A stretch of DNA of 64,000 nt. Origin: a virus. The stretch covers positions 62,001-126,000 of the IMG/VR virus record IMGVR_UViG_3300024260_000002; one strand, given 5' to 3'. The notes under the pieces were generated by a model. It did not search any database, had not been told where the DNA came from, and saw only the letters and a program-made list of their open reading frames with translations. Within the stretch, counting starts at the first letter, position 1. Each line of letters begins with the position of its first letter. This document shows, piece by piece, positions 40,624 through 57,434 of this stretch. The position numbers and the translations under genes were made by a program.

Positions 40624-41516
40624 TAGAAACCTTCAATACTAAATATATCTTGTAGTTTAGCTACGGGTGTAGGTTTGATATATCTCAATTCATATCCTAA
40701 AAGACCGTTTGATTTACTAGGTCTAATATCTCTTAGATGCTTGAACTTATCTTTAGTTTGAACTAAATGATTAAGACTTGTTGGTTTATCTAAATCTAAA
40801 ATATACTCAACATGTTTACCTTTAAAGTCATCAGGAAGAAACATAAAATTTAAACTCTTAGCAAATATACAATAATCAAAGCTTTGACCCCAAACTAATT
40901 TACCATTTGGTCTTATTCTAAGTTTGTGTAAACTTAAATTTGGAACTAATATATCATCTTTGAGATCTGTCATTATTTGTGTAAGTTGATCAGAGTATTG
41001 ATCAATACTATCAAGATCTTCATCTATAGTTGGCAGACTAGTAGTGTCTTCCATTACTATAAAACTTTTAGTTTCAAGGTAGTATTTACTCATCCATGAG
41101 TATTTTTGAGTAGTAGTTGCTTTGTATAAAGCTTTTATTATATCTTCTAATGACATATTAACTTTGAACTTATCAGCAGCTGGACCAATTTTTGCAAAGG
41201 TCTCATGGACTGTACTTACATCATAATTATAATATTCTTCAATATAAGCATTTACTTTGTCTTTGATAAATAATTTATAATCCGTTCCACCAACAGTAAG
41301 TTTAATAATATAGAGTTTCTCCATACTTTCGTCCATACTTTGATTGATATTATTATTGTCAATTGTTGTGAATAAAATAAGTTTATAATTACCAAGTGTT
41401 TCAACTATTTCATCATCTAATTGTGTTTTATATTTATCTAATATATGTTTTTTATATATTATACATGCAGCTTTCTTTTCAACAAGTGTTCTATTTTTTA
41501 ATTTTTTACGTGCCAT
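40623..41516 (-). CDS. Unknown island protein (297 aa)
   Basis: 297 residues, AAGGAGAAGTA start; begins MARKKLKNRTLVEKKAACII and has a helical middle. Near residue 200 is SLHKLRIRPNGKLVWGQSFD, a His/Asn/Asp arrangement that resembles a catalytic-loop layout, followed by DYCIFAKSLNFMFLPDDFKG. I cannot assign a family; a kinase or transferase is only a guess. It lies between the amidinotransferase and the glycosyltransferase with overlapping ends, so it is part of the same transcript. Confidence 0.65.
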   Translation of the reverse strand: MARKKLKNRTLVEKKAACIIYKKHILDKYKTQLDDEIVETLGNYKLILFTTIDNNNINQSMDESMEKLYIIKLTVGGTDYKLFIKDKVNAYIEEYYNYDVSTVHETFAKIGPAADKFKVNMSLEDIIKALYKATTTQKYSWMSKYYLETKSFIVMEDTTSLPTIDEDLDSIDQYSDQLTQIMTDLKDDILVPNLSLHKLRIRPNGKLVWGQSFDYCIFAKSLNFMFLPDDFKGKHVEYILDLDKPTSLNHLVQTKDKFKHLRDIRPSKSNGLLGYELRYIKPTPVAKLQDIFSIEGF

Positions 41517-42543
41517 TACTTCTCCTTAAATCTAAAGTACTGCAGTGTATTCCACCACCAAAGATTTCACAGTTATCTAATTCAATAGGTACTACTGTAA
41601 ATCCATTTTGCTCAAGTACTTTTATAGTACCATAAGCTTCTTTATTAACTAGAACAGTATCATGACTAACACTTAGAACATTAATATCCATTCCTAAAGA
41701 GCTAGCGAGTTGTCCATCTAAATTGATTTTGTTTGATACATCTCTAACTTGATATTGTTCAGGTACTAATATTCGATAATTCTTTAACCATGGAATCTGT
41801 TTTAATAAAGCATCTTTGTACTTAGGATTCACAAGAAAAGTATTTGAATTTAACTGAACAATAGCTCCATCAATATGATTATCAACTACACTAATTTCAA
41901 AGAATTCTTTATTTGGAAAGAATTTCTTTATCCAAAGATAACCTAAGTAATGGTTATAACTTGATATGTTAACAACTATCTTATCATGAACTCTTAAGAA
42001 TTGGGCACCGTCAATAGCCATCGTATAACCGCTCATATCTCGCGTATAATCTCTTTTAAGATCCCAGGCATCCAAATCTATAGTATCCTCGGTTATTATT
42101 GTTTTAGGCGCTGTAATCCATTGAGTATCTTGTTTAGCAAATATATCATACAATGCTTGGTTCTCAAAATATCTACCAGTTACATATGTAGGAGTCTCAA
42201 TAATAATATCATCTATTACTATTGATAAATCTCTAACATTACTAGCACTTGATAATTCACTTTTAAATTGTGGTGTAACAACTTGTTGAACTTTGTCTAC
42301 AATAGTCGGACGATACACCTTAACTCCGAGTTTTTCTATAGTACTAGATAAATTATCTAAATCATAAATTCTCTTTTGTAATATATCTTTGTTAATGTGG
42401 TAGACGTCTTGTTCGTAAACTGAGTGATTTAAATTTGTTTTATAAAAATGTTTAAAAGTAAAATCTATACTTCTATCATTTAATTCAAGCTCTCTACCAA
42501 CAATAACCTCATGTAATTTTGAGTATCCATTATCTGATCCCAT
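41506..42543 (-). CDS. Amidinotransferase-type (guanidino-group modifying) enzyme
   Basis: 345 residues, AAAGGAATTAA start. Features of the glycine/inosamine-phosphate amidinotransferase family: KLHEVIVGRELE at the N-terminus, VVDNHIDGAIVQLNSNTFLV with the His-x-Asp pair, and the C-terminal EIFGGGIHCSTLDLRR with candidate nucleophile Cys334. Length matches the family. Such enzymes move an amidino group from arginine to an amine, or, in relatives, hydrolyse arginine. With a DegT-type aminotransferase two genes away, guanidylation of an amino sugar or amine is a reasonable hypothesis. The substrate is not visible. Confidence 0.83.
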   Translation of the reverse strand: MGSDNGYSKLHEVIVGRELELNDRSIDFTFKHFYKTNLNHSVYEQDVYHINKDILQKRIYDLDNLSSTIEKLGVKVYRPTIVDKVQQVVTPQFKSELSSASNVRDLSIVIDDIIIETPTYVTGRYFENQALYDIFAKQDTQWITAPKTIITEDTIDLDAWDLKRDYTRDMSGYTMAIDGAQFLRVHDKIVVNISSYNHYLGYLWIKKFFPNKEFFEISVVDNHIDGAIVQLNSNTFLVNPKYKDALLKQIPWLKNYRILVPEQYQVRDVSNKINLDGQLASSLGMDINVLSVSHDTVLVNKEAYGTIKVLEQNGFTVVPIELDNCEIFGGGIHCSTLDLRRSNGT

Positions 42544-42552
42544 TTAATTCCT

Positions 42553-43476
42553 TTATAATAATTCACAACCCTTAGATCGTAGAATATTTCTAATATTCTT
42601 TTCACAGAACTTACAGCAATCATATTCAAAATCTAATATCTTACCATAATCTTGATCCCATATATTAATACCAGATTCTTCTAGCCATATATAACAAGGG
42701 TAAATATTTCCGGATTGATCTATATGTATTGATCCATCTTCGAATGAAGTACAATGCATTGTTTTAGACTTGCGTTCTAATTTAGTCTTATTAATTAGTT
42801 GATTAGTATAATTAATTGCGGTCTGATAAAATTTAAGATCTTCGTTGTGAATAGGAAGTTTCTCTAGATTATAATCATCAACATATGTTGAATGATCTCT
42901 TGTGAAATAAGTTTTAGTGTAATTAACATTGTTAAATGTTTCGATCATCTCACGCATTTTTGTACTATTAAGATCTTCTTTATTATATGCAAATAATATA
43001 TGTTGAATATAATCATTCTTATTAATATTCTTGAATGCAGCTGCATTAGCTAAAAGATTATCTAATGAACAATTAACTCTATATGTTTCATGTAATTCTT
43101 GTGTGCTTCCACATACAGAAAAATATACAGAATCACCTTCTTTTAATAATTTACCTAACTTATACCACCATTCAGGATTATGAGTATCTCCATTAGTACA
43201 TATCTCTATGTCTAAATTTAAATTATGTAACTCTTTTATCAAATGAAATATTTCTTTATATAATGTTGGTTCACTTGTTGCACCAACCAAATTAATCTTA
43301 TTCAAATTAGGAAATAGTTTAATCTGTTCAATAATATCTTCTACTGATCTCTCATTATAAAATATCTTACCAGCTTCATTAAGTGTTTTATAATTTCTTG
43401 CACATAAAGGACAATTTAGATTACATGTTCCGGTTAGATCAAATTCAATCATATTTACTTTACTTCTATCTAACAT
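42553..43476 (-). CDS. Radical SAM protein, CPLC family (1 of 3)
   Basis: 307 residues. Iron-sulfur motif CNLNCPLC (Cys18, 22, 25) follows EFDLTGT; NLVGATSEPTLYKEI replaces the usual GGEP region; CTNGDTHNPEWWYKLGKLLK and SVCGSTQELHETYRV are shared with the two genes upstream in transcription. The C-terminal part has IHIDQSGNIYPCYIWL and CCKFCEKN, a SPASM- or Twitch-like cluster-binding end. It would use SAM-derived radicals; the substrate is unknown. The ATG overlaps the previous gene by 7 bases. Confidence 0.85.
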   Translation of the reverse strand: MLDRSKVNMIEFDLTGTCNLNCPLCARNYKTLNEAGKIFYNERSVEDIIEQIKLFPNLNKINLVGATSEPTLYKEIFHLIKELHNLNLDIEICTNGDTHNPEWWYKLGKLLKEGDSVYFSVCGSTQELHETYRVNCSLDNLLANAAAFKNINKNDYIQHILFAYNKEDLNSTKMREMIETFNNVNYTKTYFTRDHSTYVDDYNLEKLPIHNEDLKFYQTAINYTNQLINKTKLERKSKTMHCTSFEDGSIHIDQSGNIYPCYIWLEESGINIWDQDYGKILDFEYDCCKFCEKNIRNILRSKGCELL

Positions 43477-44423
43477 ACGAAATCCAATCCACTAATCTCA
43501 ATCATCTTTTTAGTCTTAGCTTCACATAAGAAACAATCAGGATATGTAAATTCAAAGATTTTAGTATAATCAAATATATAATCTTTATGTAATTTAGTTG
43601 GATCATCACAAAGGAAATCATCTTTTGATTCAGGAAATTCCATACTAATATAACAGTAATGCATTTGACCAAATTGATTAATATGCATCTTTTTTGTATT
43701 GAATGCTTTACATTCAATTGTTGCAGCATCACCAACTTTCTTACGACGATTGAATAATGTATTAATTGCATTCTCTCTAGTAATTAAAGGACTTATCTCT
43801 TTGGATACTTCCTTAACATGTTCAGTTAAACGTCTTCGTCCTTCTGTTCCAACAATATAACTATGAGAAAAACCTTTTACAATATCATTCATTGCTTCAC
43901 TTTTTAAATCTTCTGTGTTGTATTTGAATTCAATTATTTGAAGGATATCTCTATTAGAATGTAATTTAAATGCTTTGGCATTATTTAGAATTTTACTAAG
44001 ATCACTACCTACTCTATATTCAGCATTAACTTCTTGTGAACTTCCACATAATGTAAATGTACAAGAGCTTCTTTCATGTCCTTGTTTAAAAAGCTTTCCA
44101 AGAGATTCCCAATATTCAGTACTTTGTAATGAACCATTAGAAAACATATCAATATGTATATTTCTAGAATTAAAGTACTCAATAAGTTCTGGCAATTCTG
44201 GATATAATAATGGTTCACTAATAGCTCCAGCTAACATAATTCTAGTTAAATTTGGAAAGAAATCTAATTGTTTGATAATATCTTTTACTGGTCTAACATT
44301 CTTCTTTAATAAGTGTTGAGCATGAGAATAATTTCTTGTACATAAAGGACATTGTAAATTACATGTACCTGTTAAGTCTATCTCAAACTCTTTTATATCA
44401 CTTGTTGTTAATGTTTTTAACAT
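43470..44423 (-). CDS. Radical SAM protein, CPLC family (2 of 3)
   Basis: 317 residues, AAAAGGAAGATAGTT start. CNLQCPLC (Cys21, 25, 28) after FEIDLTGT, ITRIML-type strand, MLAGAISEPLLYPEL, FSNGSLQSTEYWESLGKLFK and TLCGSSQEVNAEYRVG, paralogous to the flanking genes. A C-terminal cysteine-containing part (MHINQFGQMHYCYI; DCFLCEAKTKK) again looks like an auxiliary cluster domain. It is the longest of the three. Co-transcribed with its paralogues. Confidence 0.85.
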   Translation of the reverse strand: MLKTLTTSDIKEFEIDLTGTCNLQCPLCTRNYSHAQHLLKKNVRPVKDIIKQLDFFPNLTRIMLAGAISEPLLYPELPELIEYFNSRNIHIDMFSNGSLQSTEYWESLGKLFKQGHERSSCTFTLCGSSQEVNAEYRVGSDLSKILNNAKAFKLHSNRDILQIIEFKYNTEDLKSEAMNDIVKGFSHSYIVGTEGRRRLTEHVKEVSKEISPLITRENAINTLFNRRKKVGDAATIECKAFNTKKMHINQFGQMHYCYISMEFPESKDDFLCDDPTKLHKDYIFDYTKIFEFTYPDCFLCEAKTKKMIEISGLDFVC

Positions 44424-44425
44424 AA

Positions 44426-45262
44426 CTATCTTCCTTTTAAATGTAATGCTAATTCAGATGTATCTGATTCAGCTTCTGCTAACCTATATATTTTATTATC
44501 ACTTAATATCTTTGAATTATTCTTACTACATTCCCAGCAATGTTTATCACCAAAATTCTTAAAAAGACTACAAGGATTTAACTTATTATCAGAACTTAGT
44601 AATGCGAAATTATATTCCTCCGCAGGACACTCTTTGGTGATATCTTCTCTATTCAAAGTACTATATGCTTCTGATACTAACTTGGGTAAATGTATTTCAC
44701 TATCTAATTCAAAATGTTCACTGACTGGTAAAGTATGAAAATACTCAGCCTTGTATTTATTAAATCTACTTCTATCATCATCTTTGTTATAATTAAATAC
44801 AATATAGTTTAATATGCCTTTTTTAGAATACAGGTTAATGATATCTAATCGTCTAAGAACTGTATTTAGATTACTACCTACTCTATATTTTTCATGAAGT
44901 TCTTGAGTACTTCCACATACAGTTAAATATATATGACCGTTAATGCCTTTAAATAACATACCAAGTTTACGATAATACATATCATCATGAGTGTCACCAT
45001 TAATAAATAATGATACTTCTATATCGCGCATTTTTAAGTATCTTAAAAGTGGCACAAGTTTCTTATATAGAGTCGGTTCTGATGTGGGACCAGCCAGAGT
45101 AACATACTTAAGATCTTTTAAGTTTTCTAATCGTTCAATTAAAACATTATAATCTAATGTTTTATTATCCGTTAATTCAGGATGAGTTTGTCTTATACAT
45201 AATGGACATTGTAAATTACATATATTATTTAACTCTATTTCTATTCTTGTTATTTCTCTCAA
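44426..45262 (-). CDS. Radical SAM protein, CPLC family (3 of 3)
   Basis: 278 residues from a TTG start with AAAGGAAATCTT upstream. ICNLQCPLC (Cys15, 19, 22), YVTLAGPTSEPTLYKKLVPL, FINGDTHDDMYYRKLGMLFK and TVCGSTQELHEKYRVG. C-terminal cysteines occur in LNPCSLFKNFGDKHCWECSK, a likely auxiliary Fe-S or zinc site. It is the first of the CPLC trio in transcription order, 10 bases after the four-gene DTHNQ array. Likely the same general substrate class as its two paralogues. Confidence 0.85.
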   Translation of the reverse strand: MREITRIEIELNNICNLQCPLCIRQTHPELTDNKTLDYNVLIERLENLKDLKYVTLAGPTSEPTLYKKLVPLLRYLKMRDIEVSLFINGDTHDDMYYRKLGMLFKGINGHIYLTVCGSTQELHEKYRVGSNLNTVLRRLDIINLYSKKGILNYIVFNYNKDDDRSRFNKYKAEYFHTLPVSEHFELDSEIHLPKLVSEAYSTLNREDITKECPAEEYNFALLSSDNKLNPCSLFKNFGDKHCWECSKNNSKILSDNKIYRLAEAESDTSELALHLKGR

Positions 45263-45272
45263 AAGATTTCCT

Positions 45273-45899
45273 TTAAATGTAAACTATATTATCAAAATCT
45301 TTTTCAGTTATCCATCTCAATTGACTTTCGATTGTTGCATAAGTTCTATAATTTTTTAAAAGTAGTTTGTGATTAGCTTTGCTTAATTGAGGAGTATAAT
45401 CTTCTAATGATAATGAACCAGGAACTATATGAAATAATCTATTATTGTTATCAAGAAATGATTCTAAATTATGAAAGTTATTATCTGTTACAACAATCAT
45501 ATATTGAACATTCCCTGGTAAATCTTTTATTATCTCAGTATCTAAATTTTCAGAAGCATGGTATAAAATACTATTGAACTTATCAATTAAACTTGGATAC
45601 TTCTCTAAGAATAATCCATTAGTATTTAATGATAAATTATAGTCTTCAAATTCCTCAAGTAAATATAATATTTTTTCTAAGCTTAATGTTCCAACTTCGC
45701 CACCAGATAAAGTAATATTATAATCATTGTATTTCTCATGAACTAATTTAACTTTATTTTGTAATTCAATAGAACTTATAGCTGGTTGATTATGAGTATC
45801 AACACAACAATATTCACAATTCCAATTACATTTATAAGTAACTATAATTTCAAGTTCTTTCTCATTAGCTTTCATAAAATCTAAATTCATTCCTTCCAT
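45273..45899 (-). CDS. Radical SAM protein, DTHNQ array member (1)
   Basis: 208 residues. YKCNWNCEYCCVDTHNQ gives Cys24, 28 and 31; ITLSGGEVGT is the SAM-binding loop in place of GGEP; LNTNGLFLEKYPSLI and ILYHASEN follow. No C-terminal cysteine cluster, so it is a compact rSAM core without SPASM. The start has AAAGGACAAATA and overlaps the next gene by one base. It shares all marker strings with the three genes upstream in transcription. Function unknown. Confidence 0.83.
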   Translation of the reverse strand: MEGMNLDFMKANEKELEIIVTYKCNWNCEYCCVDTHNQPAISSIELQNKVKLVHEKYNDYNITLSGGEVGTLSLEKILYLLEEFEDYNLSLNTNGLFLEKYPSLIDKFNSILYHASENLDTEIIKDLPGNVQYMIVVTDNNFHNLESFLDNNNRLFHIVPGSLSLEDYTPQLSKANHKLLLKNYRTYATIESQLRWITEKDFDNIVYI

Positions 45900-46591
45900 T
45901 ATTTGTCCTTTGTTCTAAGTGAAACACAGTTTTCAAAATCATCTGATTCAAGAAACAATAAAGGTGCATGTGGTAAGAATAACCTATCTTTATATTTTTG
46001 ATATATTTTAAAACCTAATTTTCTATCAAGACCAGATTGATATACCTCTTTAACATAACCAGCATTAGCACCAATAACAGCAAATTGAAATTGAGGATAC
46101 TTATTTAAATACCATTCAATATCTTCAAATGAATCTTTATTTGTTACCACTAGTTGATAAATAAAATTATCATTTACAGGAATATGATCAAAGTGATATA
46201 ATTTAATTTCTTTTCTTGATCTAACATCTTGTACTGTATGATAGAGAACATCGCTTATGTATTTAACAACTAAGTCAGGATACTTCTCTAAAAATAGCCC
46301 ATTTGTATCAACTGTGATTACACAGTTCTTTTCTTTTAGGATTTCACAATACTTAATAATAAGATCTTTGGATACCATTCCTGGTTCACCACCAGCAAAC
46401 GAAACAATAGTATTATTTGGTACTTTAGCTAATTGATTCATAACAGAAGCATCATCTATCTGTTCATCTTGATTATGTGTGTCTGCACAACAGTACCAAC
46501 AATCCCAATTACATTTAAAAGTTAAATCAACATTGTAATGTATACTTGTTATCTGTTCAAAGTCTATCTTCTCTTCTTGCGTTTCTTGCAT
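45899..46591 (-). CDS. Radical SAM protein, DTHNQ array member (2)
   Basis: 230 residues, AAAGGAAATTAAA start. FKCNWDCWYCCADTHNQ (Cys27, 31, 34), TIVSFAGGEPGMVSKDLIIK (SAM-binding GGEP), VDTNGLFLEKYPDLVVKYIS and VLYHTVQDV. The last 70 residues have no cysteine motif beyond a lone Cys near the C-terminus. The protein keeps the whole catalytic front half and is about 100 residues shorter than typical SPASM enzymes. Confidence 0.84.
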   Translation of the reverse strand: MQETQEEKIDFEQITSIHYNVDLTFKCNWDCWYCCADTHNQDEQIDDASVMNQLAKVPNNTIVSFAGGEPGMVSKDLIIKYCEILKEKNCVITVDTNGLFLEKYPDLVVKYISDVLYHTVQDVRSRKEIKLYHFDHIPVNDNFIYQLVVTNKDSFEDIEWYLNKYPQFQFAVIGANAGYVKEVYQSGLDRKLGFKIYQKYKDRLFLPHAPLLFLESDDFENCVSLRTKDK

Positions 46592-46592
46592 T

Positions 46593-47156
46593 TTAATTTC
46601 CTTTTAATAAATGACTTATACTATCCCCGTGTACTTTATAGTTCTTGATTATATATAATGCATTCTTATTTGATAAACTATTTCCATTGACCTCTTTCAT
46701 ACTTGAAACAAAAAATTGAATATTATAGTTATCATAATACCAATCAAGCGCAAGAAAATTTGAATCATTAACCAACAACATATATGTAATTGGAACACTG
46801 ATATCAAATAATTGTATTTCTTTTAACTCTTCTATATGCTCTATACAATGATATAAAATATCATCAACATATTCTTCTACTATCTTTGGATACTTCTCTA
46901 AGAATAAACCATTTGTGTTTAGAACAATCTCACAGTTCTTTTCTTTAAGTAATTTAAAGTACTCAAGAATATCTTCTTCATTAACAGTACCAGGTTCACC
47001 ACCTTCAATATGGACTGAACACCCTTCTGGAATATTCTCAATACATTTAAGTACTTTCTTTTTAGTAGCTTTTGAACTACTTTGATTATGTGTATCAACT
47101 ATACAATAATTACAATGCCAATTACAAACATAAGTTATAGGTAAGAAACAATTCAT
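46593..47156 (-). CDS. Radical SAM protein, DTHNQ array member (3)
   Basis: 187 residues, the shortest of the array. VCNWHCNYCIVDTHNQ (Cys11, 15, 18), SVHIEGGEPGTVNEEDI, LNTNGLFLEKYPKIVEEYVD and ILYHCIEH. ATG overlaps the previous stop in an ATGA arrangement, so translation is coupled. Only the core beta/alpha units are present. Substrate unknown. Confidence 0.83.
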   Translation of the reverse strand: MNCFLPITYVCNWHCNYCIVDTHNQSSSKATKKKVLKCIENIPEGCSVHIEGGEPGTVNEEDILEYFKLLKEKNCEIVLNTNGLFLEKYPKIVEEYVDDILYHCIEHIEELKEIQLFDISVPITYMLLVNDSNFLALDWYYDNYNIQFFVSSMKEVNGNSLSNKNALYIIKNYKVHGDSISHLLKGN

Positions 47157-47773
47157 CTAAACCCCATTACTTTTACATTTTGATCAACTGATGTATTTTC
47201 ACCAAGTAGTTGCAAGATAGACTCTTTTGGAATTATATCTTTAATTTCATTATAGAGTTTAAATGCATTCTTAATACTTAGACTTGTTAAGTTTTGATTT
47301 TCATTCTTTCTTGCTCTATGAACATGAATAGGTAAATCAACATTGAGTAAGAAATCTCTAACAAGATGAAAATTAGTATCATCTGCTATGATAACATAAT
47401 CCATAGGTACATTGATAATAGGCATATATACATCGTAATTAGTTAAATCATCTTGTACATGATAAAAGAAGTATTCAATATATTTAACTAACTCAGGATA
47501 TCTTCTAAAGAAGAGTCCATTAGTATCCATGTGAATATTACAGTTCTTTTCTAATAATCTTTGTATTATTTCAACTAAAAATTCTTTCTTAGCCATTCCT
47601 GGTTCACCACCAGCAAGAGAAACTAAACTTCCATTTTTTAATGAATCAATACTATCAAATATATCTTGAGGTTTAGGTTCATCTTGATTATGTGTATCAA
47701 CTATACAATATGAACAATCCCAATCACACTTAAAAGTAATTAGTAAACAGTATTTTACTTTAACTTCTTCCAT
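47153..47773 (-). CDS. Radical SAM protein, DTHNQ array member (4)
   Basis: 206 residues, AAAGGAAATAAT start. FKCDWDCSYCIVDTHNQ (Cys16, 20, 23), LVSLAGGEPGMAKKEFLVEI, MDTNGLFFRRYPELVKYIEY and FFYHVQDDL. First of the array in transcription order and overlaps the glycosyltransferase-like gene by 19 bases. The late-conserved DTHNQ string, identical in all four, is unusual next to the iron-sulfur cysteines and may define the family. Confidence 0.84.
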   Translation of the reverse strand: MEEVKVKYCLLITFKCDWDCSYCIVDTHNQDEPKPQDIFDSIDSLKNGSLVSLAGGEPGMAKKEFLVEIIQRLLEKNCNIHMDTNGLFFRRYPELVKYIEYFFYHVQDDLTNYDVYMPIINVPMDYVIIADDTNFHLVRDFLLNVDLPIHVHRARKNENQNLTSLSIKNAFKLYNEIKDIIPKESILQLLGENTSVDQNVKVMGFR

Positions 47774-48657
47774 ATTATTTCCTTTAAAATGTTGATTATA
47801 TTATCATCTTTAGTAAGTTCTACCTGATTGAGATTCTTTAGATCTTCTATGCGATATTTCAAACCAAGATCAGTATCCAAATAATCAATATTTAGATACT
47901 CAACATCAATACCGAAGTATTGACATTCTGCTATCATTCGTGGAGAACAATCCCATTTTCTCGAAATAGGAGTATAAATATATTTAGATATATTTATAAA
48001 TTCTTCATAAGGTGTTCTTTCAATTTGACATATGTTAGATAATGAATCATAATAATCATTGTCTGTCAGTAATAAATAATTACCCGGATTACTTAAAATA
48101 TAATCCTTAACTACATCAAGTTCTAAAATTCGACAATTACCAGTTAGATACATTAATATTTTATCCGTTCTAATTGGTGATTTCAATTTACTAAATAAGA
48201 TCTTTTTCTTATAATCAATACCATTTACCTTTACTTGTTCATAGACTCTTTGGTCTTGTAACACATGAAGCTTAGGGTTGACATTATTTTTTATTTCTTT
48301 GTTTCCACATGCGAATGTAAAAACATTATCTGATAGATATGTTACTAAATTCATAGTATTTATATCTCCATCCATAAAGAATATATTCTTACATTTAATC
48401 AATGTAGGATGATAATTATTAAATGTAGTAACGCTTAATAACTTTTCAACTTCTTGTTGAGTGAATGTGTACTTCTTTATAACAGTACGAAAATCTTCTT
48501 CTGATAGACCTATAAATAGTACTCGGGTATCAAAAACATCTTTTAGAATATAATAGTAATCTATCAATTCAAAGATATGGCCACATATATTGTGACCATT
48601 ATTATTCCAGGTATAAGTTAATATTAACTCACCTTCTAGCATTAATATCTTTTTCAT
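47755..48657 (-). CDS. GT-B-like glycosyltransferase (probable)
   Basis: 300 residues. N-terminus MLEGELILTYTWNNNGHNIC with GHIFELIDYYYILKDVFDTR resembles the first domain of GT-B enzymes; the C-terminal domain has YTPISRKWDCSPRMIAECQY and FGIDVEYLN, where R-x-x-E-type donor-binding segments lie. No DxD motif. Ribosome binding site is weak, so it probably depends on upstream translation. It directly precedes the rSAM array, overlapping its first gene. Assignment is by pattern only. Confidence 0.6.
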   Translation of the reverse strand: MKKILMLEGELILTYTWNNNGHNICGHIFELIDYYYILKDVFDTRVLFIGLSEEDFRTVIKKYTFTQQEVEKLLSVTTFNNYHPTLIKCKNIFFMDGDINTMNLVTYLSDNVFTFACGNKEIKNNVNPKLHVLQDQRVYEQVKVNGIDYKKKILFSKLKSPIRTDKILMYLTGNCRILELDVVKDYILSNPGNYLLLTDNDYYDSLSNICQIERTPYEEFINISKYIYTPISRKWDCSPRMIAECQYFGIDVEYLNIDYLDTDLGLKYRIEDLKNLNQVELTKDDNIINILKEIIWKKLK

Positions 48658-48660
48658 TTT

Positions 48661-49485
48661 TTAATCTTTTAATATTGTTTGTACCATTAAATCATTTTTG
48701 TCTAATGTGTATTTTTGTAATTGACCATCTTTGATATCTTTTTGGCGTAGTGTAGTGCTATCTTCAATGGTAGTTCTTTCTTCAATTATAATTGGAATAT
48801 TGTACCATGCTGCTTCTACTATAATACGATTATTTGTATCTAAACCGATATGAACATAAACAATTTGGTCTATTATATTAAATAGATTTTTAATTATTTT
48901 GATATCACTCTTCATTAGAATATTCTTTAAATTGTATTTCTCAGCAATTACAGCAATTTCACAACTATCACTCTTTCCCTTATTTACATAACTTAAGAAT
49001 GTTGTTTCCGTTTTACAATTTTCAATTTGTTTAAAAATACTAAAGTTCAACTTCAAAGTGCTCTTAATATCAAATTTTTGATAATCATAATAACCAAAAT
49101 ATGTGGTACCATTCGGGCTTCTATAATTATCATGAGTTTCATTACTATAAACAAAATGTTCACCTCGAACAAAACCTCTTAATCGTTTATAAGATGATAC
49201 ATCAACGAATAAAGCTTTTCTAACATTATAAGTATACATCTGTACAGTAGTACAGAATTGTATATCAATTTCTTCAATATCGTATTTATCTTTAATAGCA
49301 TTAAGTGAAAGAATTTCATCCTCTTTTAATTTACGCTTAGCAACAATATATAAAGTACATAATGAATGTTGTTGTAGTAAATAAAAATATTCAAATGCAT
49401 AATAAAAAGAACCGTTTATTTTGTTATGATCATTTATATAATATACAACCGCATTATGAGATTGTATATGATTAGGATTTATCAT
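48661..49485 (-). CDS. GT-B/GT4-like glycosyltransferase (probable)
   Basis: 274 residues, AGGAAGTAGG start. FYYAFEYFYLLQQHSLCTLY, then SYKRLRGFVRGEHFVYSNET, and the C-terminal YVHIGLDTNNRIIVEAAWYN followed by IPIIIEE, which resembles the GT4 'E..A.....P(V/I)I' donor-binding segment. Slightly short for the family. It pairs with the GT-like gene at 47755. Could be a non-catalytic relative. Confidence 0.62.
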   Translation of the reverse strand: MINPNHIQSHNAVVYYINDHNKINGSFYYAFEYFYLLQQHSLCTLYIVAKRKLKEDEILSLNAIKDKYDIEEIDIQFCTTVQMYTYNVRKALFVDVSSYKRLRGFVRGEHFVYSNETHDNYRSPNGTTYFGYYDYQKFDIKSTLKLNFSIFKQIENCKTETTFLSYVNKGKSDSCEIAVIAEKYNLKNILMKSDIKIIKNLFNIIDQIVYVHIGLDTNNRIIVEAAWYNIPIIIEERTTIEDSTTLRQKDIKDGQLQKYTLDKNDLMVQTILKD

Positions 49486-49493
49486 CCTACTTC

Positions 49494-50099
49494 CTATGAA
49501 ATGTCGTTTAGATATTTCGACATGAATGTAGCATATAGTTCATCAACTTTTGATTCATCAGTTGCTAATCTAATCTCTGAAAAATATTCAGTGTATTTCT
49601 CTTCTAAATAAGAACTTCTAGCAATTTCATCTCTAGCATTTAAATACATCTCAAGTTTATCAATTAAAGCATCATCACCTGTTTCAAGTATTTTGAGATA
49701 TGTTTCTTCTTTATTATCATCATGAATAAAGTATCCATTATCACAAAGAATATTATTGATATTAATATATTGATACATCATTAGTCCAGAAACGTTTGCT
49801 TGCTGGTGTGTAACCAATTGGCGTACTTTTTTAAGATATATACTTTTGTATAATTCTAACTCATTATTTACATCAACAATGATAAGATCATGTACTTGTA
49901 TATCAATATTTTTATAATCTTTTATAATTCTAACTATTTTATTATTTGATATATGTTTCTTTATTTCACTTGCAGCAAAGGTGCTTAAACCTAAGAAACC
50001 TGTGTGGCTCTCAAACTCTTTATTGTGTGATGCAGTTAAATATTCTATTTCAAAATATGTACCACAATCAATGACTGCTGCCATTTCAAATACTTTCAT
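49494..50099 (-). CDS. Unknown island protein (201 aa)
   Basis: 201 residues, with two AAAAAGGAAT stretches upstream. Middle: KVRQLVTHQQANVSGLMMYQ and YININNILCDNGYFIHDDNK; the last 60 residues are strongly helical and acidic (DALIDKLEMYLNARDEIARS). I have an impression that similar proteins occur in large T4-like marine phages, but I cannot name one. It lies between an rSAM gene and the GT-like gene. No enzymatic motif. Confidence 0.65.
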   Translation of the reverse strand: MKVFEMAAVIDCGTYFEIEYLTASHNKEFESHTGFLGLSTFAASEIKKHISNNKIVRIIKDYKNIDIQVHDLIIVDVNNELELYKSIYLKKVRQLVTHQQANVSGLMMYQYININNILCDNGYFIHDDNKEETYLKILETGDDALIDKLEMYLNARDEIARSSYLEEKYTEYFSEIRLATDESKVDELYATFMSKYLNDIS

Positions 50100-50121: not shown

Positions 50122-51048
50122 TTATTTTTCGTAACCATCGCATCGAAGAATGAATTCACAATCTTTACATGAACGAGGTTTATCGTAAGAAGCTATCCTA
50201 TTAGTTATAGCTGTTTCTAACATTGACTCTACTGTTATATCCTGAACTGTGGTTAAATCAAATGTTTGAATATTCCAATCAGTTAGATCATATATATGAT
50301 CTAACGTACTAACGCAGTATTTTTCATATCCTTTCATAAAGCAGAAAGGAATATATCTAACAGTCACAGGAACGATATCTTTATCGATAAAGATCATTAT
50401 CTTAGGAGATACTTTCTGGTAATCTAAATAATCTAATTTATGTGATGATTCCCATCTATTTAAAGGTAAGAAGTTTAACTGTTGAATTTTAACACCACAT
50501 CTTATTAGATATTTTATAATTCTAGCATAATTACGACCATCAAAATCATTTTGAACAGTGCAATTAATTCGAATATCCATATCTAACTCTTGAGCATTCT
50601 TAATTGCTTGAATTATCTTTCTAAACGCTTTATGATCAACTTTCTCATTATGCGATTTAGTATTCCAACCGTGTAAACTGAATAATATTTCAGATAAGCC
50701 ATGATCTTTAGCTTCTTTTAGTTTATCAATATCACTGAAACTAATACCATTTGTAAGCATAGCTATTTTATCAAAGTTTTTACACATATCTAAGATTGTT
50801 AAGAACTCAGGATGTATAGAACTTTCACCACCTGATAAATCAATACTTGTCATACCAGAAGCTTTCAATAAATTAATTTCATTCTCAATGATACTAAGTT
50901 TTCTAAAAGGATCTTTTAAATTACCTTGATAGTAACAGAATTCACAATTTAAATTACAAGTAGTTCCAGTATTTAATCTACCTCTTAAACATATCGGTTT
51001 ATCTGGTAGATCATTAATTTTGGGCTTTATTATTTTATTTAAATTCAT
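50122..51048 (-). CDS. Radical SAM protein next to the Cys-repeat fibre
   Basis: 308 residues. TTCNLNCEFCYYQGN (Cys31, 35, 38), SIDLSGGESSIHPEF (SAM-binding loop), CTVQNDFDGRNY and a C-terminal RSCKDCEFILRCDGYEK, a short SPASM-like cysteine group. The start overlaps the end of the fibre gene by four bases (ATGA). Ribosome binding site is modest. The overlap makes this rSAM protein and the fibre a translational pair. Confidence 0.84.
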   Translation of the reverse strand: MNLNKIIKPKINDLPDKPICLRGRLNTGTTCNLNCEFCYYQGNLKDPFRKLSIIENEINLLKASGMTSIDLSGGESSIHPEFLTILDMCKNFDKIAMLTNGISFSDIDKLKEAKDHGLSEILFSLHGWNTKSHNEKVDHKAFRKIIQAIKNAQELDMDIRINCTVQNDFDGRNYARIIKYLIRCGVKIQQLNFLPLNRWESSHKLDYLDYQKVSPKIMIFIDKDIVPVTVRYIPFCFMKGYEKYCVSTLDHIYDLTDWNIQTFDLTTVQDITVESMLETAITNRIASYDKPRSCKDCEFILRCDGYEK

Positions 51049-51872
51049 ATTATTCTGCTGAATATATCTCTATAAAGAGCATCATAATCGACTTGAAAAT
51101 ACTCTTCTGTATTTATAACATAAATTGATAAACCATCTCTGATTAAATCTTGAGCCATTACACCAAATTGTTTTTCTTTTGGTAAATCAAGTCCTAGTTC
51201 AGTACCATCAACATAATAAAATGAATAGAATTTAATAGGAGTTTTACTCTTAATTTTATTCGATGCTACTGTTCCAATATGATTTATTTCAATCTTTAAT
51301 CGTCTATCGCTATAGTTACAACCACAATCTGTATTACATGTACATACATTATTACAAGCACAATCTGAATTACATAAACAGTTATCCGCAATACTAATAT
51401 AATTGTTTATAATATTATTATAAAAAGCTGCTTCTATTTCTGCTGGACGAGATATTGAAGCTATACCAAAAGTACTAAATGAATTAATAACAGATACCAT
51501 TTGATCCCATTCGTATTTATAAGCAACATTTCCTTTAATAGCATTTAAAGTAATTTTAGGAATATACCATGATTGATTACTTGCTTGCTTGTATCTAGGA
51601 TCAGGATTACTTACTCCCCTAGACCAATTATTAGCAATACTATTTAATGAGTGTTTTAAACTTGTAGTGTCTTCTGTACAAACTGTATCAGTAATTCCTA
51701 CAAAATTTAAAGAGGGGAAAGCTGCTCCTTGATTAGGTGCATGGTGAGCCGCACAATCAATTCTTCTATCTTGTATAGCAGTAGCGCCTCCATATACTAC
51801 TTGACCTTCTATTGTAGCTGGATTAGCTACAAGGGTTGGAGTCGTTTCATCTGTTATATTATTAACTGCCAT
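51045..51872 (-). CDS. Tail fibre with four CxCN-type repeats and an S74 self-cleaving C-terminus
   Basis: 275 residues, AAAGGAATAAAA start. The first 160 residues are a beta-rich fibre head. Residues 165-185 hold eight cysteines at 165, 167, 171, 173, 177, 179, 183 and 185: hexapeptides with CxC spaced by NSD, NNV and NTD. It continues straight into SDRRLKIEINHIG (188-200), the S74 intramolecular-chaperone entry with candidate cleavage Ser188, then FGVMAQDLIRDG and FQVDYDALYRDI. S74 domains trimerise and cut themselves off fibre proteins. The cysteine run lies just before the predicted cut and so stays on the mature fibre. It lies between two rSAM genes. Confidence 0.85.
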   Translation of the reverse strand: MAVNNITDETTPTLVANPATIEGQVVYGGATAIQDRRIDCAAHHAPNQGAAFPSLNFVGITDTVCTEDTTSLKHSLNSIANNWSRGVSNPDPRYKQASNQSWYIPKITLNAIKGNVAYKYEWDQMVSVINSFSTFGIASISRPAEIEAAFYNNIINNYISIADNCLCNSDCACNNVCTCNTDCGCNYSDRRLKIEINHIGTVASNKIKSKTPIKFYSFYYVDGTELGLDLPKEKQFGVMAQDLIRDGLSIYVINTEEYFQVDYDALYRDIFSRII

Positions 51873-51883
51873 TTTTATTCCTT

Positions 51884-51908
51884 TAATTCCTAATTTTCTT
51901 AGGAATTA
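51884..51908 (-). promoter_or_regulatory. Hairpin between rSAM-SPASM gene and fibre gene
   Basis: TAATTCCTAA/TTAGGAATTA with a five-base loop overlaps the stop codon of the SPASM gene and lies 12 bases before the fibre ATG. It can serve as an attenuator or translation-control stem for the fibre; the fibre AAAGGA site follows it directly. Confidence 0.45.
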
Positions 51909-53009
51909 AATTCCTAAGTGTTTTTGCACGGTTCTATCTATTTTTCCGAATGCTTTATATATTCCACATAAGTCATCTTTTGGATCATGATACTTTTCTT
52001 CATATGTTTCTTTTGTTGATGTATCATGATTTACAATTGGACATTGATAACATACAGTTGCTGTACAACCTTTACAATGTTCAGGAACAAGCATAATTTC
52101 TTTATGTCTTTCATGTGAAGTCATAACAGCTTCAACCGGATTATCAATATGCCCAATTATAAAATCTTCTTTATTTTCAGAATATAACGCTCCATGACAA
52201 ACTAAAAGATTACCATCAATATCAACATTAGCTATATTCGTACCAGCAGAACAAACATTGCGTTCACCTGTTCCAAACCATGACCAAACGAATCTACCAT
52301 TAGCTTTATAATATTCTATTTCTAGCTTAGCAATCTTTAAAAATTGTTCATTAACTATCTTTAAGAACGGTTCATCTATTACATATTTGTTAGTGTACTC
52401 TAATGTAGGAGAATAGTTAAAAGTGGGATATTTTTCAATTAGTTCTTTAAAATGTAACCAATTCTCTAATAGATTAGGCATTTCATGAATTGCTAATGTA
52501 CTCTTTATACTGAGTTTAATATCTGGAAATTTATCCATTAAGTAATGAACTGAGCTTAGGACTGTACTTGATGTACCTTCACCTTTATGATCAACTCTTT
52601 CTAAATCATTATTAAGACCGTCATAACTTATTTGATAACTAAATCTTGAAGTGTCATCTATAAATAATTTAAAGTTATTAATAATTTTCTCAATATTTTT
52701 AACATTAAAACCATTAGTATACATGAAGAAATCAACAGGAGAATCTTTAAATTCATTAATCAATCTAATAATCATTTTAGAATTTAGAGTAGGTTCACCA
52801 CCCCAAAAATTAATAGTTACGCCGTTGAACACTTCTAGGAATTTCTCACCATTAAGCATCTCATGAACTGATTTAATAATATCATCTGTATGTAACTGAG
52901 GATTCTTATTTTGAAGCTCTTCCCCTTCGAAACAATAGGTACAAGCCATATCACACTTTTGTGTAGTTGTTACTTCATATGCGAAATATCTTTTTTGTCT
53001 TTGATTCAT
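51906..53009 (-). CDS. Radical SAM/SPASM maturase-like protein
   Basis: 367 residues. TQKCDMACTYCFEG (Cys19, 23, 26), VTINFWGGEPTLNSKMIIRL, and a full SPASM end: RNVCSAGTNIANVDIDGNLL followed by CHGALY, then CKGCTATVCYQCPIVNHDT. This is the anaerobic sulfatase-maturase/peptide-modifying architecture, where auxiliary clusters position a peptide. It is the most peptide-maturase-like of the ten. It is flanked by an 82-residue gene upstream (ATGA overlap) and the cysteine-repeat fibre downstream. Confidence 0.88.
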   Translation of the reverse strand: MNQRQKRYFAYEVTTTQKCDMACTYCFEGEELQNKNPQLHTDDIIKSVHEMLNGEKFLEVFNGVTINFWGGEPTLNSKMIIRLINEFKDSPVDFFMYTNGFNVKNIEKIINNFKLFIDDTSRFSYQISYDGLNNDLERVDHKGEGTSSTVLSSVHYLMDKFPDIKLSIKSTLAIHEMPNLLENWLHFKELIEKYPTFNYSPTLEYTNKYVIDEPFLKIVNEQFLKIAKLEIEYYKANGRFVWSWFGTGERNVCSAGTNIANVDIDGNLLVCHGALYSENKEDFIIGHIDNPVEAVMTSHERHKEIMLVPEHCKGCTATVCYQCPIVNHDTSTKETYEEKYHDPKDDLCGIYKAFGKIDRTVQKHLGI

Positions 53010-53254
53010 GATTTCTCAATTTGACCAAGAATATCATCATAGTCATCGGCACTTAATTTAGAAGCATCTAATTTAGAATTTTCTTCCATTGCAGTTAAAG
53101 TAACTTTTGCCATATTAAATATAGTAGCAGCTGCGTCATTAAAACCAGCATCGTCTAATATATTACCAGCTTGAACTAAATGCCAAATTGAAGCCTTTAA
53201 TTGTACTTCTAAAGGCTCATCTTTTAATGGAGTCTCTTTATTTTCTTCATTCAT
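53006..53254 (-). CDS. Small helical protein (82 aa) beside the SPASM gene
   Basis: 82 residues, AAGGATATAAAA start. Acidic leader (MNEENKETPLKDEPLEVQLK), helix KASIWHLVQAGNILDDAGFN and acidic tail. No cysteine or core-peptide repeat. The ATGA overlap with the SPASM gene couples them, a layout known for RiPP precursor/maturase pairs. It could be a precursor, an adaptor or an unrelated small protein. Confidence 0.62.
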   Translation of the reverse strand: MNEENKETPLKDEPLEVQLKASIWHLVQAGNILDDAGFNDAAATIFNMAKVTLTAMEENSKLDASKLSADDYDDILGQIEKS

Positions 53255-53264
53255 TTTTATATCC

Positions 53265-53780
53265 TTAAATTTGTATTTTATATTGTTCTGATAATGTTTC
53301 TAACACATCTAACTTTTGTAAATTATATATTGGAACGTTGTAAGTATCAGCTACACCAATAGCTAAACCCGTTCCACCTGTATCTTTACCGACTTCTTCT
53401 TTATTTGTAGCACCATCTATAGTCCAACATATTAAGAAATCACTTGGACGATCTAAACCTATTCCTAGAACTTGATGAACATTTCTAGCCATGAGTCTTT
53501 TAACTGGTGTTTTTAAATATTTCCAACTCCGATGATGTTCAGATGCTATATCAAATGCTTGAGGCCAAATATTAAATAAACTTGATGTGTTATTATTAAA
53601 ACCTTTCCATGGCAGAAATATATCTTTCTTATCAATATCTTTTTCAAATGCTAAATCTGCTCCATCTGCTCCACCAGATCTTAGAATATATGTATCTTTA
53701 AATACTTGTGAGAAGCTTGACATAAATTCTAAAATTGCTGTTGGAGTCTTTCTTGCGCCTATCCCTGTATAGTAATTCAT
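53265..53780 (-). CDS. SLOG-type (LOG/DprA-like) nucleotide-binding protein
   Basis: 171 residues. YTGIGARKTPTAILEFMSSF followed by LRSGGADGADLAFEKDID is the classic SLOG opening (GSRxxP...SGGAxGAD). Later KDTGGTGLAIGVADTYNVPI fits the second glycine-rich loop. Such domains bind nucleotides or nucleotide-derived ligands. They occur widely in phages. The ATG overlaps the previous gene by four bases. Confidence 0.72.
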   Translation of the reverse strand: MNYYTGIGARKTPTAILEFMSSFSQVFKDTYILRSGGADGADLAFEKDIDKKDIFLPWKGFNNNTSSLFNIWPQAFDIASEHHRSWKYLKTPVKRLMARNVHQVLGIGLDRPSDFLICWTIDGATNKEEVGKDTGGTGLAIGVADTYNVPIYNLQKLDVLETLSEQYKIQI

Positions 53781-54325
53781 GACTTATATTCTAACGGCAT
53801 TGTAGCTATGCTAATAATATGATCAATTGTTCCATCATCAACATCAACAACAATATATGGAATTGAATTTTTCATTAATAAATGAGCAATTGTATCATCT
53901 AAAAGTTTAGCACCTTCCAAATCTTGTTCTCTACCATACTCTTCGTATAGAGCTTCTTTATTTCTTCTAAGAAGAATATTAACATTATTATATCTATTAA
54001 ATTGTTCTTTTAGATAAGCATTAAATTCAGCAATTGGTATCTTAGTTTCACAACAATATGACATTCCCATTATGAATGGACTATCATGTACAGCATAATC
54101 AACTTTATTAAGAAGTCTATACATTCTATGATGCTGTTCACCTGCTACCAATAGTTGGTCAGAAAGTCTAAACCAATCTTCTGAATATACTAATTCTTTA
54201 GCAAACTCTTGAGTCATATCAACTTTCTTTCCTAGCATTTTTAATCTATCAAATACAGCAGCAGCTGTTCTACTTTTACCAACTCCTGGGCCTCCGAATA
54301 GGTTTATATTTATTGCACTTTTCAC
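53777..54325 (-). CDS. P-loop NTPase/kinase-like protein (182 aa)
   Basis: 182 residues from a GTG start that overlaps the previous stop (ATGTGA). Walker A GGPGVGKS at residues 11-18; a kinase-like YAVHDSPFIMGMSY follows and REQDLEGAKLLDDTIAHLLM later. The length and layout (P-loop at residue 11, D-x-x near 95) resemble small nucleoside or ATP/GTP-binding phage kinases. Likely cytoplasmic. Substrate unknown. Confidence 0.72.
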   Translation of the reverse strand: MKSAININLFGGPGVGKSRTAAAVFDRLKMLGKKVDMTQEFAKELVYSEDWFRLSDQLLVAGEQHHRMYRLLNKVDYAVHDSPFIMGMSYCCETKIPIAEFNAYLKEQFNRYNNVNILLRRNKEALYEEYGREQDLEGAKLLDDTIAHLLMKNSIPYIVVDVDDGTIDHIISIATMPLEYKS

Positions 54326-55302
54326 ATATTTTCCTTTTCAAATAAAATTAACAGAGTATGTCGTGTTCTAGATATTAATTCTGTAATCTCTTTATTAATG
54401 TACTTGTAGATCTCACATAACTCAGCGATAGGAGCTTTGTTTTTAATTTGCTCATAAGTACACCCACGATGACAAAATTGACTTATGTCGCATTTATCAC
54501 ACACATCAGTTACTATATATTTATTAGTTAATAATGTTGTAGAGTCTCTCTCGAAACGCTCGCATGCAACTATTTTCTTCTGAGGAGTAATTGCCCAGTA
54601 GCTTGTTCCTACTCCACAATCTTCTTGTTCATGACCTTTCATAAAGAATTCTAGAACAGGATTGAGATATGTTTTAATTAATCCTGGTATCTCATTGTAA
54701 GTCTTATATTGTTTAAAGTCACCAAGATAATTAATGTATTTAGTAAACTCTTTATTAAATGTTTGAACTTGTTCATCATTCCATGAACCAATGTCTCTAA
54801 CAAGAGTCATATCAGGAACTAATCCTACATCTATAAGAGCTTCGTGTTGTTTAATAAGAATATTATCTTGCATATCAATTCCATTAATCATACAATGACC
54901 ATGAGTTGCACCTGCTTCAATTAATGATCGAATATAGATTCGATGATTCCCTCGATGAGCTTCTTGAAAAATACCATCATATGATATAGTGGTTCTAATA
55001 TTAGGATGCTCCACAATTTTTTTAACTGTTTTATTATATATTGTCCCATTTGTAGTTATTACAATTTGAATCAAATTTGGATGAGATTCTAATTTATTTA
55101 TTATATATTCTACAATATCTAATTGTAGAAAAACTTCCCCACCGAATATACTAAACACAAAAGGCTCAGTTAAATTCAACATAAATTCATCAAAGTACGC
55201 TTCGTCTAATCTAAGTTTATTATTGACGTCAACATTACAATATGTACAATTCATATTACATAACTCTGATACCACATAATGCCAATGTTTTACATCTTTC
55301 AT
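54322..55302 (-). CDS. Radical SAM protein with SPASM-like tail (first island gene)
   Basis: 326 residues, AAAGGCTAGTA start. SELCNMNCTYCNVD (Cys15, 19, 22), FVFSIFGGEVFLQLDIVEYI, TTNGTIYN, TISYDGIFQEAHRGNHRIYI, and a cysteine-rich end VCDKCDISQFCHRGCTYEQI with a further Cys in ELCEIYK. It resembles SPASM maturases, though GGE is followed by V and not P. First in the island transcript, just after the border repeat and an ATAGAAAT motif 19 bases upstream of the ATG. Confidence 0.85.
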   Translation of the reverse strand: MKDVKHWHYVVSELCNMNCTYCNVDVNNKLRLDEAYFDEFMLNLTEPFVFSIFGGEVFLQLDIVEYIINKLESHPNLIQIVITTNGTIYNKTVKKIVEHPNIRTTISYDGIFQEAHRGNHRIYIRSLIEAGATHGHCMINGIDMQDNILIKQHEALIDVGLVPDMTLVRDIGSWNDEQVQTFNKEFTKYINYLGDFKQYKTYNEIPGLIKTYLNPVLEFFMKGHEQEDCGVGTSYWAITPQKKIVACERFERDSTTLLTNKYIVTDVCDKCDISQFCHRGCTYEQIKNKAPIAELCEIYKYINKEITELISRTRHTLLILFEKENM

Positions 55303-55535: not shown

Positions 55536-57434
55536 TTAAACCTTAACCTCTACATAACCACCTTTCGAAGGAGTAATAGCTATACCAATTAATGGTTCAC
55601 TACTATAATATGAATCTTTAGATTGTGATCTAGTCACACCTATAACTTTTCCGAACTCTTTTGGATCTGGGAAAATATACATACCTCTAACTATATCATG
55701 ATTTGTCTTAACTGGGATCCGTCCTTTTAAGGCAACAAAAATATAATCTTTTGTTCTAACTGAAGCATTAAGTTCAAGCCCTGGTGAAGTAGAAACAACA
55801 CCCGCTAATGGTAATTCAGGATTATACAAAGTAACTTCTGTATCTATACCAATACTAAGAACCGTACCTGGCTCATATTGTAAATCACTTTCGTATTTTT
55901 CAGCTAAATCTGCATACTCTGCAGATGTCGCAACACCTTCAAATTTACCACCATCTGTTTTAAAATCAAATGCTGTAACTCTGCCTGAGAAAGTACCATT
56001 TGCACCATTCTTAAGAGAATATGTATTATTTAAATCTAAATCACCACCTAATAATAATCCACCTGCTGCAGTAATTTTACCAGTACTTGTAAAAGTACCA
56101 GCATTTTCAAAATTACCATGTACATACATATTTCTCAAAACATCTAAATCTCTTCCAAGATAAGTATCTTTACCAGTTATTTGATGAATCTCATCGTTGA
56201 ATGTTGCTTCGCCTGTTAAAGTCATATCACCTGCATTCGTAACAATAAATTTTACATCACCAAGCTTCTCAATAAAAATTGAATTTTCAGTTTGAATGTC
56301 ACCAACTACTGTTAAGTATCCACCTACTGTTAAGTATCCACCTACTGTTAAATAATTACCAACTGTAAAGTATTCACTGATAGTACCAAAACCATCAAGT
56401 ATATTAAGATTACCTAATCCAGTAATTTCGATATCTCCAGCTGCTGTAGCGATACCAGTAGTAACATCTAATCGGCCATCACCAGTACTAATATCACCTG
56501 TACCTGTACTAATATTACCAGCTCCTGTATTAACAAAACCATTATTAGTTGAAGTAACACCATCTCTAATAAAACTTAAACCTCTAGTAATATCTAAATT
56601 ACCATTTGAAGCAACTATATTACCAATGTCAGTTCTGATTTCACCATCAACTGTTGTAATATGACCTTGTCCACCAACATTAACAAAACCACCACCAGCA
56701 TTACTTCTAAAACCAGTATTAACATGACAATATCCAAGTGAACTTAGAATATTACCGTTTGTTGTTAATGAATTATCTGATGAATTGGTTGAATTAATAG
56801 TAACTTTTCCAGTAGTATCAACTTTAAAAAATGTTTGAACTTCAAATGTTCCAGGTAGATAAACTATATTAAAACGACTAGCATCACCAATAGTTAAAAG
56901 GTGAGTATTTTCATTCATATTTAAAATAGTTTGATCTTTATACCACATTGATAAAGCATCAATATATAACCAATCTCTATTTACTTGAAGATTTTCTATA
57001 TCGTAACCTGTTAAAAGCCCTTCTACATAAGTAGGCGATTTAATAGGACCGGTAAAGTATTCTAATTTTTTTAGATGTAATATTTCAGCAGTATCTTCTA
57101 TGATGGCATCAGCTCTACGACTTTCTTTTCGAAGTTGACCTAAAGCAAAATAATTTTTAGATAATTCATCAACTGTTAAATCTTTAAGAGCACCAACATT
57201 TATTTCAAGTTGAAGCATATCAGCTCTAAGTAATTCATTTGAATTATGTGTAACTTCTAATAGTTTTGTAACTATTATTTTGTAATCATTTTCTAGCTTA
57301 TACGATAATTCGTCACTCTGCTCATAATAAGCAGCAACATCATTCGTAAGGCCTTGAATATTACTTTTTAATTTAGCCTCGTTAAATTTTAGGGCATTTA
57401 AAGTTGCTACTTCTTGCAGTATTGACTTTGACAT
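55536..57434 (-). CDS. Tail fibre protein with phage-type C-terminal chaperone-like domain
   Basis: 632 residues, AAAAAGGATGGATA start. N-terminal coiled-coil (residues 1-110), then a Gly/Thr/Asn-rich beta-solenoid shaft (NTGAGNISTGTGDISTGDGR), three near-identical TVGGYL units, and a C-terminal ATSAEYADLAEKYESDLQYE followed by PGTVLSIG, a common end of marine T4-like phage fibres. The last 100 residues form a beta domain (PLIGIAITPSKGGYVEVKV). It is directly outside the rSAM island border, next to the repeat. Receptor binding is probable. Confidence 0.75.
   Translation of the reverse strand: MSKSILQEVATLNALKFNEAKLKSNIQGLTNDVAAYYEQSDELSYKLENDYKIIVTKLLEVTHNSNELLRADMLQLEINVGALKDLTVDELSKNYFALGQLRKESRRADAIIEDTAEILHLKKLEYFTGPIKSPTYVEGLLTGYDIENLQVNRDWLYIDALSMWYKDQTILNMNENTHLLTIGDASRFNIVYLPGTFEVQTFFKVDTTGKVTINSTNSSDNSLTTNGNILSSLGYCHVNTGFRSNAGGGFVNVGGQGHITTVDGEIRTDIGNIVASNGNLDITRGLSFIRDGVTSTNNGFVNTGAGNISTGTGDISTGDGRLDVTTGIATAAGDIEITGLGNLNILDGFGTISEYFTVGNYLTVGGYLTVGGYLTVVGDIQTENSIFIEKLGDVKFIVTNAGDMTLTGEATFNDEIHQITGKDTYLGRDLDVLRNMYVHGNFENAGTFTSTGKITAAGGLLLGGDLDLNNTYSLKNGANGTFSGRVTAFDFKTDGGKFEGVATSAEYADLAEKYESDLQYEPGTVLSIGIDTEVTLYNPELPLAGVVSTSPGLELNASVRTKDYIFVALKGRIPVKTNHDIVRGMYIFPDPKEFGKVIGVTRSQSKDSYYSSEPLIGIAITPSKGGYVEVKV
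56307..56360. repeat. 18-bp tandem repeat in fibre gene (x3)
   Basis: Three units of TACTGTTAAGTATCCACC (last one diverged), coding for a repeated YLTVGG in the fibre shaft. In-frame copy changes would alter shaft length. Confidence 0.85.

Follow-up and report, generated by a model that had tools for sequence, protein, structure and literature searches.

The window analysed here (64,000 nucleotides, bases 62001-126000 of the 181,622-bp IMG/VR record IMGVR_UViG_3300024260_000002) encodes a fibre protein in which a ladder of cysteines precedes a predicted self-cleaving S74 domain, next to a radical S-adenosylmethionine (radical-SAM) enzyme with SPASM-type cysteines. The evidence below supports the SPASM maturase and the Cys-ladder virion-type protein as a recurrent genetic pair. 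The maturase probably modifies the ladder at the fibre tip, most likely by forming Cys thioethers, with S74 trimming to follow. Beyond the window, whose record also holds contractile-tail phage genes (tail sheath, head protease), it seems fairly likely that many tailed phages carry a dedicated ranthipeptide-type maturase that cross-links the Cys ladder of their own fibre, the types of Cys repeat having diversified in coevolution with the enzymes.

The fibre protein and proposed substrate (275 residues, 51045-51872, minus strand) carries four CxCNxx units with eight Cys at residues 165-187 (CLCNSDCACNNVCTCNTDCGCNY, 51312-51380, minus strand); two further Cys, C40 and C65, lie outside this ladder. 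It is not a product of chance, since four CxCN units arose in none of 200,000 shuffles of the protein and since the ladder is the best conserved part across relatives (65% identity; the N-terminal part has 23% and S74 has 46%). The invariant ladder positions are mostly Cys. Directly after the ladder, S188-D-R-R-L-K193 opens the S74, or intramolecular chaperone autocleavage, domain (51045-51311, minus strand), and residues 188-244 match Pfam Peptidase_S74 (PF13884, E 1.8e-6, 28.6 bits against a gathering threshold of 22). S74-type cleavage is carried out by a Ser-Lys dyad that cuts before the Ser, S911/K916 in endoNF (PMC8326128). By comparison with that protein, S188 and the Lys at Ser+5 (K193) correspond to the dyad; this self-cleavage site lies two residues past the end of the CxCNxx units, and the cut is predicted between Y187 and S188. 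Ladder proteins that lack S74 terminate at CNYS, CNYA, CNYTA or CNYTQ, which is the predicted S74 cut site, and this supports the ladder as the mature C-terminus after cleavage. At three loci S74 is split: the ladder ORF (open reading frame) stops just past SDxRLK (L304:7089-8074; L312:7094-7998) or SDEELK (L307:7141-8116), and the remainder of S74 forms a separate ORF directly downstream. This split is probably real because it is seen at three different loci.

The proposed ladder maturase, a radical-SAM/SPASM enzyme of 367 residues (51906-53009, minus strand), is encoded upstream of the fibre gene across a gap of 33 bp. A first-pass annotation of the window had given this distance, a 4-base overlap between the fibre gene and the radical-SAM gene at 50122, and eight Cys in four CxCN-type hexapeptides right before an S74 self-cleavage site; all three were borne out. 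The enzyme contains CxxxCxxC, GGEPT, Cx12Gx4C, CxxCx4CxxC and a final C, and matches PF04055 (E 5e-10). In an alignment of 34 enzymes the three cysteines of the SAM-binding cluster (C19, C23, C26; CxxxCxxC) are invariant, and the SPASM cysteines (C253-x12-G266-x4-C271, C312, C315, C320, C323) are conserved in the viral relatives, the spacing of the four-Cys group, CxxCx4CxxC, being slightly unlike CX2CX5CX3C. Among characterised proteins, the window enzyme is best matched by PapB, a ranthipeptide maturase, by CXXX-repeat maturases and by QhpD; the NCBIfam PapB model is matched by all 34 aligned enzymes (best E 1.8e-60). Among solved structures the enzyme profile is closest to 5wgg (E 8e-27), the SCIFF maturase CteB, which forms thioethers. 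PapB connects Cys and Asp/Glu that are separated by 0-6 spacer residues (PMC9413430), and QhpD introduces three thioethers between Cys and Asp/Glu into a single protein subunit (PMC7876137).

Gene context suggests that the upstream SPASM enzyme would be the dedicated maturase of the fibre and would act on its CxCNxx ladder. Family resemblance points to the chemistry: on the model of PapB and QhpD, which use Asp/Glu, the most likely products would be intramolecular thioethers from Cys sulfur to carbon of nearby residues, with Asp and Asn as obvious acceptors. The repeat that adjoins the enzyme in the window is CxCNxx, with Asp and Asn; the PapA-type repeat is CX3D. The ladder would be modified first, S74 would then trim itself off at Y187/S188, and the product would be a rigid, reduction-proof cysteine knot forming the C-terminal tip of a fibre that is probably a trimer. 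The chemistry of radical-SAM/SPASM maturases is varied, and the window enzyme has scores with cyclophane- and dynobactin-type maturases too. It might instead modify the ladder by epimerisation, by C-C or C-O cross-links at Asn/Tyr, by hydroxylation or by Cys S-glycosylation, the last with the two possible GT-B-like glycosyltransferases encoded close to the ladder gene; the Cys would then form disulfides. We consider such non-thioether chemistry unlikely, given that the characterised relatives with the best scores (PapB, CXXX-repeat, SCIFF, QhpD) have Cys-rich substrates, those studied forming thioethers, and that Cys dominates the invariant ladder positions.

The same pairing recurs in other phages. 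Direct searches of IMG/VR with the window fibre and the window enzyme returned no matches, and an alignment-based query was needed. In a ladder-first scan, a DNA pattern for three CxCN units found 111 stretches in IMG/VR, whose reading frames were then checked; many matches fall out of frame or into spurious ORFs, and some of these were reused as negative controls. Radical-SAM genes, counted by scanning whole contigs, number 5-10 per record in all 11 records with an in-frame hexapeptide ladder (the window's included), compared with 0/11 records carrying the pattern out of frame and 3/39 ordinary S74 records having any. A second type of ladder, (NC)n, is located in a protein of 122-128 residues adjoining an S74 fibre. 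In 16 of 20 contigs the whole contig has exactly one radical-SAM gene, located 1.2-1.7 kb downstream of this ladder, and in the other four the ladder is less than 1.2 kb from a contig end. The one enzyme tested from these loci has PapB as its best match and a SPASM domain above cut-off. At L151 and L152 the enzyme directly adjoins the ladder.

Sampling from the enzyme side gives a similar picture. Among 80 viral loci chosen by SPASM enzyme profile alone, 63 were examined for a Cys-repeat ORF (6 or more Cys within 30 residues, same strand, at most 4 kb from the enzyme). Such an ORF is present near the enzyme at 55 of the 63, often less than 65 bp away, against 4 of 120 S74 control loci. Close relatives among the 63 have a common origin with the seed ladders, and some of the loci nearly duplicate one another. 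Remote enzymes (about 20-26% identity) mostly still have a Cys-repeat neighbour, with quite different patterns (CDCNYCT heptads, CDCDRC, CNxRT, CxxxC, CxxC). A third gene of the cassette, encoding a 300-residue protein (47755-48657), served as bait, and 40 loci with enough flank were scored: 29 have ladder and enzyme, 10 have neither, one has the enzyme with a broken ladder ORF, and none has the ladder alone. The first-pass annotation had named homologous fibres with the same repeat in phages lacking radical-SAM genes as an arrangement that would count against its proposal; for homologous fibres the outcome favours the proposal, none of the 40 bait loci having a ladder without a SPASM gene. 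At L402:7327-7650 an S74 remnant and the downstream cassette genes are kept and the ladder and SPASM gene are both gone, which looks like joint loss. Mapped on a 40-enzyme tree, the class of ladder changes nine times, compared with a minimum of 15 and a mean of 21.5 after shuffling; the window enzyme is placed in the hexapeptide clade.

These distributions bear on two further explanations. The fibre may merely have hitch-hiked among the abundant radical-SAM genes of a host-recognition island: the window has ten such genes in 13 kb, and pelagiphage host-recognition islands acquire radical-SAM cassettes (PMC7029224). However, in many divergent phages it is one SPASM subfamily, and none of the others, that directly precedes the ladder on its upstream side, and contigs with a single radical-SAM gene still have that gene near the ladder, which leaves hitch-hiking very improbable. 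As the main explanation it is largely refuted by the Cys-repeat neighbours at enzyme-picked loci, the bait loci and the single-gene contigs. Alternatively, the CxC ladder could be a Cys version of the T4 gp37 HxH motif, with the CxC pairs of three chains holding iron or zinc on the fibre axis and the radical-SAM genes serving elsewhere, for example in supplying sugars for glycans of the host or the fibre. Trimeric fibre tips with HxH iron ladders are well documented (PMC11705849), CxC alternation would set both Cys on the same strand face, and Asn, His or Asp beside the Cys could bind metal too. A metal-binding tip alone would nevertheless leave unexplained why one SPASM family adjoins ladders of very different Cys patterns, why a lone radical-SAM gene lies 1.2-1.7 kb from the ladder and why ladder type tracks the enzyme tree, and we judge its chances to be slim. 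Metal-bound and modified Cys could both be present in the ladder.

Searching cultured phages with the window fibre gave no match. An enzyme homologue and a Cys-repeat protein are nonetheless found together in 15 cultured Campylobacter phage records. Like the window, CP220-like phages (Firehammervirus) have a homologous SPASM enzyme (gp136 in CP220; 28.5% identity over 99%), a Cys-repeat protein 2.2 kb away (534 residues; a 40-residue stretch of the CP220 protein holds 18 Cys) and many radical-SAM genes, 11 in all. Unlike in the window, the ladder consists of CDCNYCT heptads, no S74 is seen and the ladder protein is otherwise dissimilar. The authors of the CP220 study described the 11 radical-SAM genes, read their clusters as metabolic and separately noted a 21-bp coding repeat (PMC2853527); both features were noticed without being linked. 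A scan of bacterial genomes for the enzyme gave 15 remote matches, of which only one (L380) has a clear Cys-repeat ORF next to it. A literature search that left out most subscription papers and any bioRxiv preprints found no publication joining radical-SAM enzymes to virion Cys repeats. The recurrence of the enzyme-ladder pair in many phages, cultured Campylobacter phages among them, makes it probable that phages use it to harden parts of their particles.

Several observations weigh against modification of the ladder by the SPASM enzyme. The window enzyme scores 16.6 bits with Pfam SPASM (PF13186), below the gathering threshold of 21.5. With the PapB model NF047865 it aligns near full length (E 4.7e-22) at 78.6 bits; the curated cut-off is 340, and with a score so far below it the enzyme is not classed as PapB. 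It begins directly at the radical-SAM domain, without an N-terminal leader-binding domain for finding its substrate. The presence and absence pattern at the 40 bait loci is not significant once phylogeny is counted, because only about three independent events underlie it. Near a Cys-rich protein whose tail is of the CGCNTG type (L012 and kin), the two contigs searched, L012 and L024, show no radical-SAM gene. Finally, the gel bands named for CP220 do not include the Campylobacter repeat protein (PMC2853527). The Cys-rich protein ends in CGCNTGCGCNTGCGCNGSCGGSCSTCHS and has 645 residues in L012 and L024 and 607 in L107, with a partial copy in L074; it is possibly an exception or another kind of tail.

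The first-pass annotation had placed the fibre between two radical-SAM genes and treated both enzymes as partners. Both genes are present as described, but they belong to a set of ten in the 181.6-kb record, all inside 42.5-55.3 kb of the window. It is the SPASM enzyme upstream of the fibre that is conserved as its partner; still further upstream, a second radical-SAM enzyme, which is PapB-like (326 residues, SPASM-type cysteines, 54322-55302, minus strand), is also conserved in the cassette. The downstream MoaA-like gene (308 residues, 50122-51048, minus strand; phrog_27238, E 2e-64), which overlaps the fibre gene, adjoins the fibre in the window alone, its homologues sitting elsewhere in the relatives mapped. 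The proposal of a RiPP-like modification (RiPP, ribosomally synthesised and post-translationally modified peptide) accordingly keeps its footing in the recurrent maturase-ladder pair and in nearest characterised maturases that form thioethers, and loses the downstream gene as a partner.

In relatives the cassette runs from a long fibre through a UDP-glucose-dehydrogenase-like gene (in some), the PapB-like enzyme, a small helical protein, the SPASM enzyme, the ladder protein, a 200-residue protein and two possible glycosyltransferases, often to a MoaA-like radical-SAM gene. The window has the same set, plus two inserted genes (53265-54325) and the MoaA-like gene adjoining the fibre. Its long tail-fibre protein lies upstream (632 residues, 55536-57434, minus strand; phrog_19602 tail fiber protein, E 3.9e-12). 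The small, probably helical protein (82 residues, 53006-53254, minus strand) overlaps the SPASM gene by 4 bases and had no match in family searches; a small gene occupies this position also in the relatives mapped. Further downstream are cassette proteins of 201 residues (49494-50099), 274 residues (48661-49485) and 300 residues (the independent bait), all on the minus strand. From a reading of motifs, the last two are possibly GT-B-like glycosyltransferases; this label is a guess, because their profiles have no convincing solved or Pfam relative.

Elsewhere in the window, seven tandem radical-SAM genes (42553-47773) lie next to an amidinotransferase-like gene recognised by eye (41506-42543). 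Four of the seven are short (187-230 residues) and have a D-T-H-N-Q motif past the cluster cysteines. The CP220 and CPt10 clusters combine five radical-SAM genes with a putative glycine amidinotransferase (PMC2853527). Three related large ORFs (19318-20832, 20967-22604, 62321-63751) with repeated T-C-I-L-K-Y-G-type N-termini are possibly homing endonucleases.

The pairing is more general than the first-pass annotation could know, extending to many phages and to cultured Campylobacter phages. If the proposed modification is correct, it would amount to RiPP-style modification of virus particles: radical enzymes so far associated chiefly with peptide natural products, and with a small number of enzyme subunits, would harden the host-recognition parts of phages. 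It would also account for at least part of the phage radical-SAM clusters called metabolic, such as the 11 genes of CP220 (PMC2853527), and would provide cultured phages for testing and many new maturase-substrate pairs, with repeat types unmatched by known RiPP models.

Among known systems, PapB/PapA (NF047865) likewise pairs a radical-SAM/SPASM maturase with an adjacent Cys-repeat substrate, PapB bonding Cys to Asp/Glu at a spacing of 0-6 residues. The system differs in that the proposed window substrate is a virion-type protein of several hundred residues with its ladder at the predicted fibre tip, and the window enzyme falls far under the family cut-off. CXXX-repeat systems (TIGR04115, TIGR04117, TIGR04118) also place a Cys-repeat target beside a dedicated radical-SAM gene, but annotation labels their known targets RiPP peptides or target proteins, the repeat in the window is CxCN, and the window fibre does not match the target models TIGR04117 and TIGR04118. 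Two fibre-like proteins (L336:3738-5186, L362:4403-5206) have a CxxxC C-terminus that weakly matches NCBIfam radical-SAM target models, below cut-off; for this reason some annotated RiPP targets may be fibre tips. Ordinary S74 fibres and endosialidases share the S74 domain with its Ser-Lys dyad at the end of the fibre protein, but ordinary S74 fibres have no Cys ladder and seldom a radical-SAM gene on the same record. T4 gp37 shares a regular, metal-capable alternating motif at the fibre tip, with His in place of Cys, and the window ladder is linked to radical-SAM genes. CteB (PDB 5wgg) aligns with the window enzyme over the radical-SAM and SPASM regions and has about 100 extra N-terminal residues that the window enzyme lacks. 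In QhpD/QhpC of quinohemoprotein amine dehydrogenase, a related SPASM enzyme forms Cys-Asp/Glu thioethers inside a structural protein subunit, as proposed here for the fibre; there the substrate is a different protein, an enzyme subunit rather than part of a virion, and the maturase is longer.

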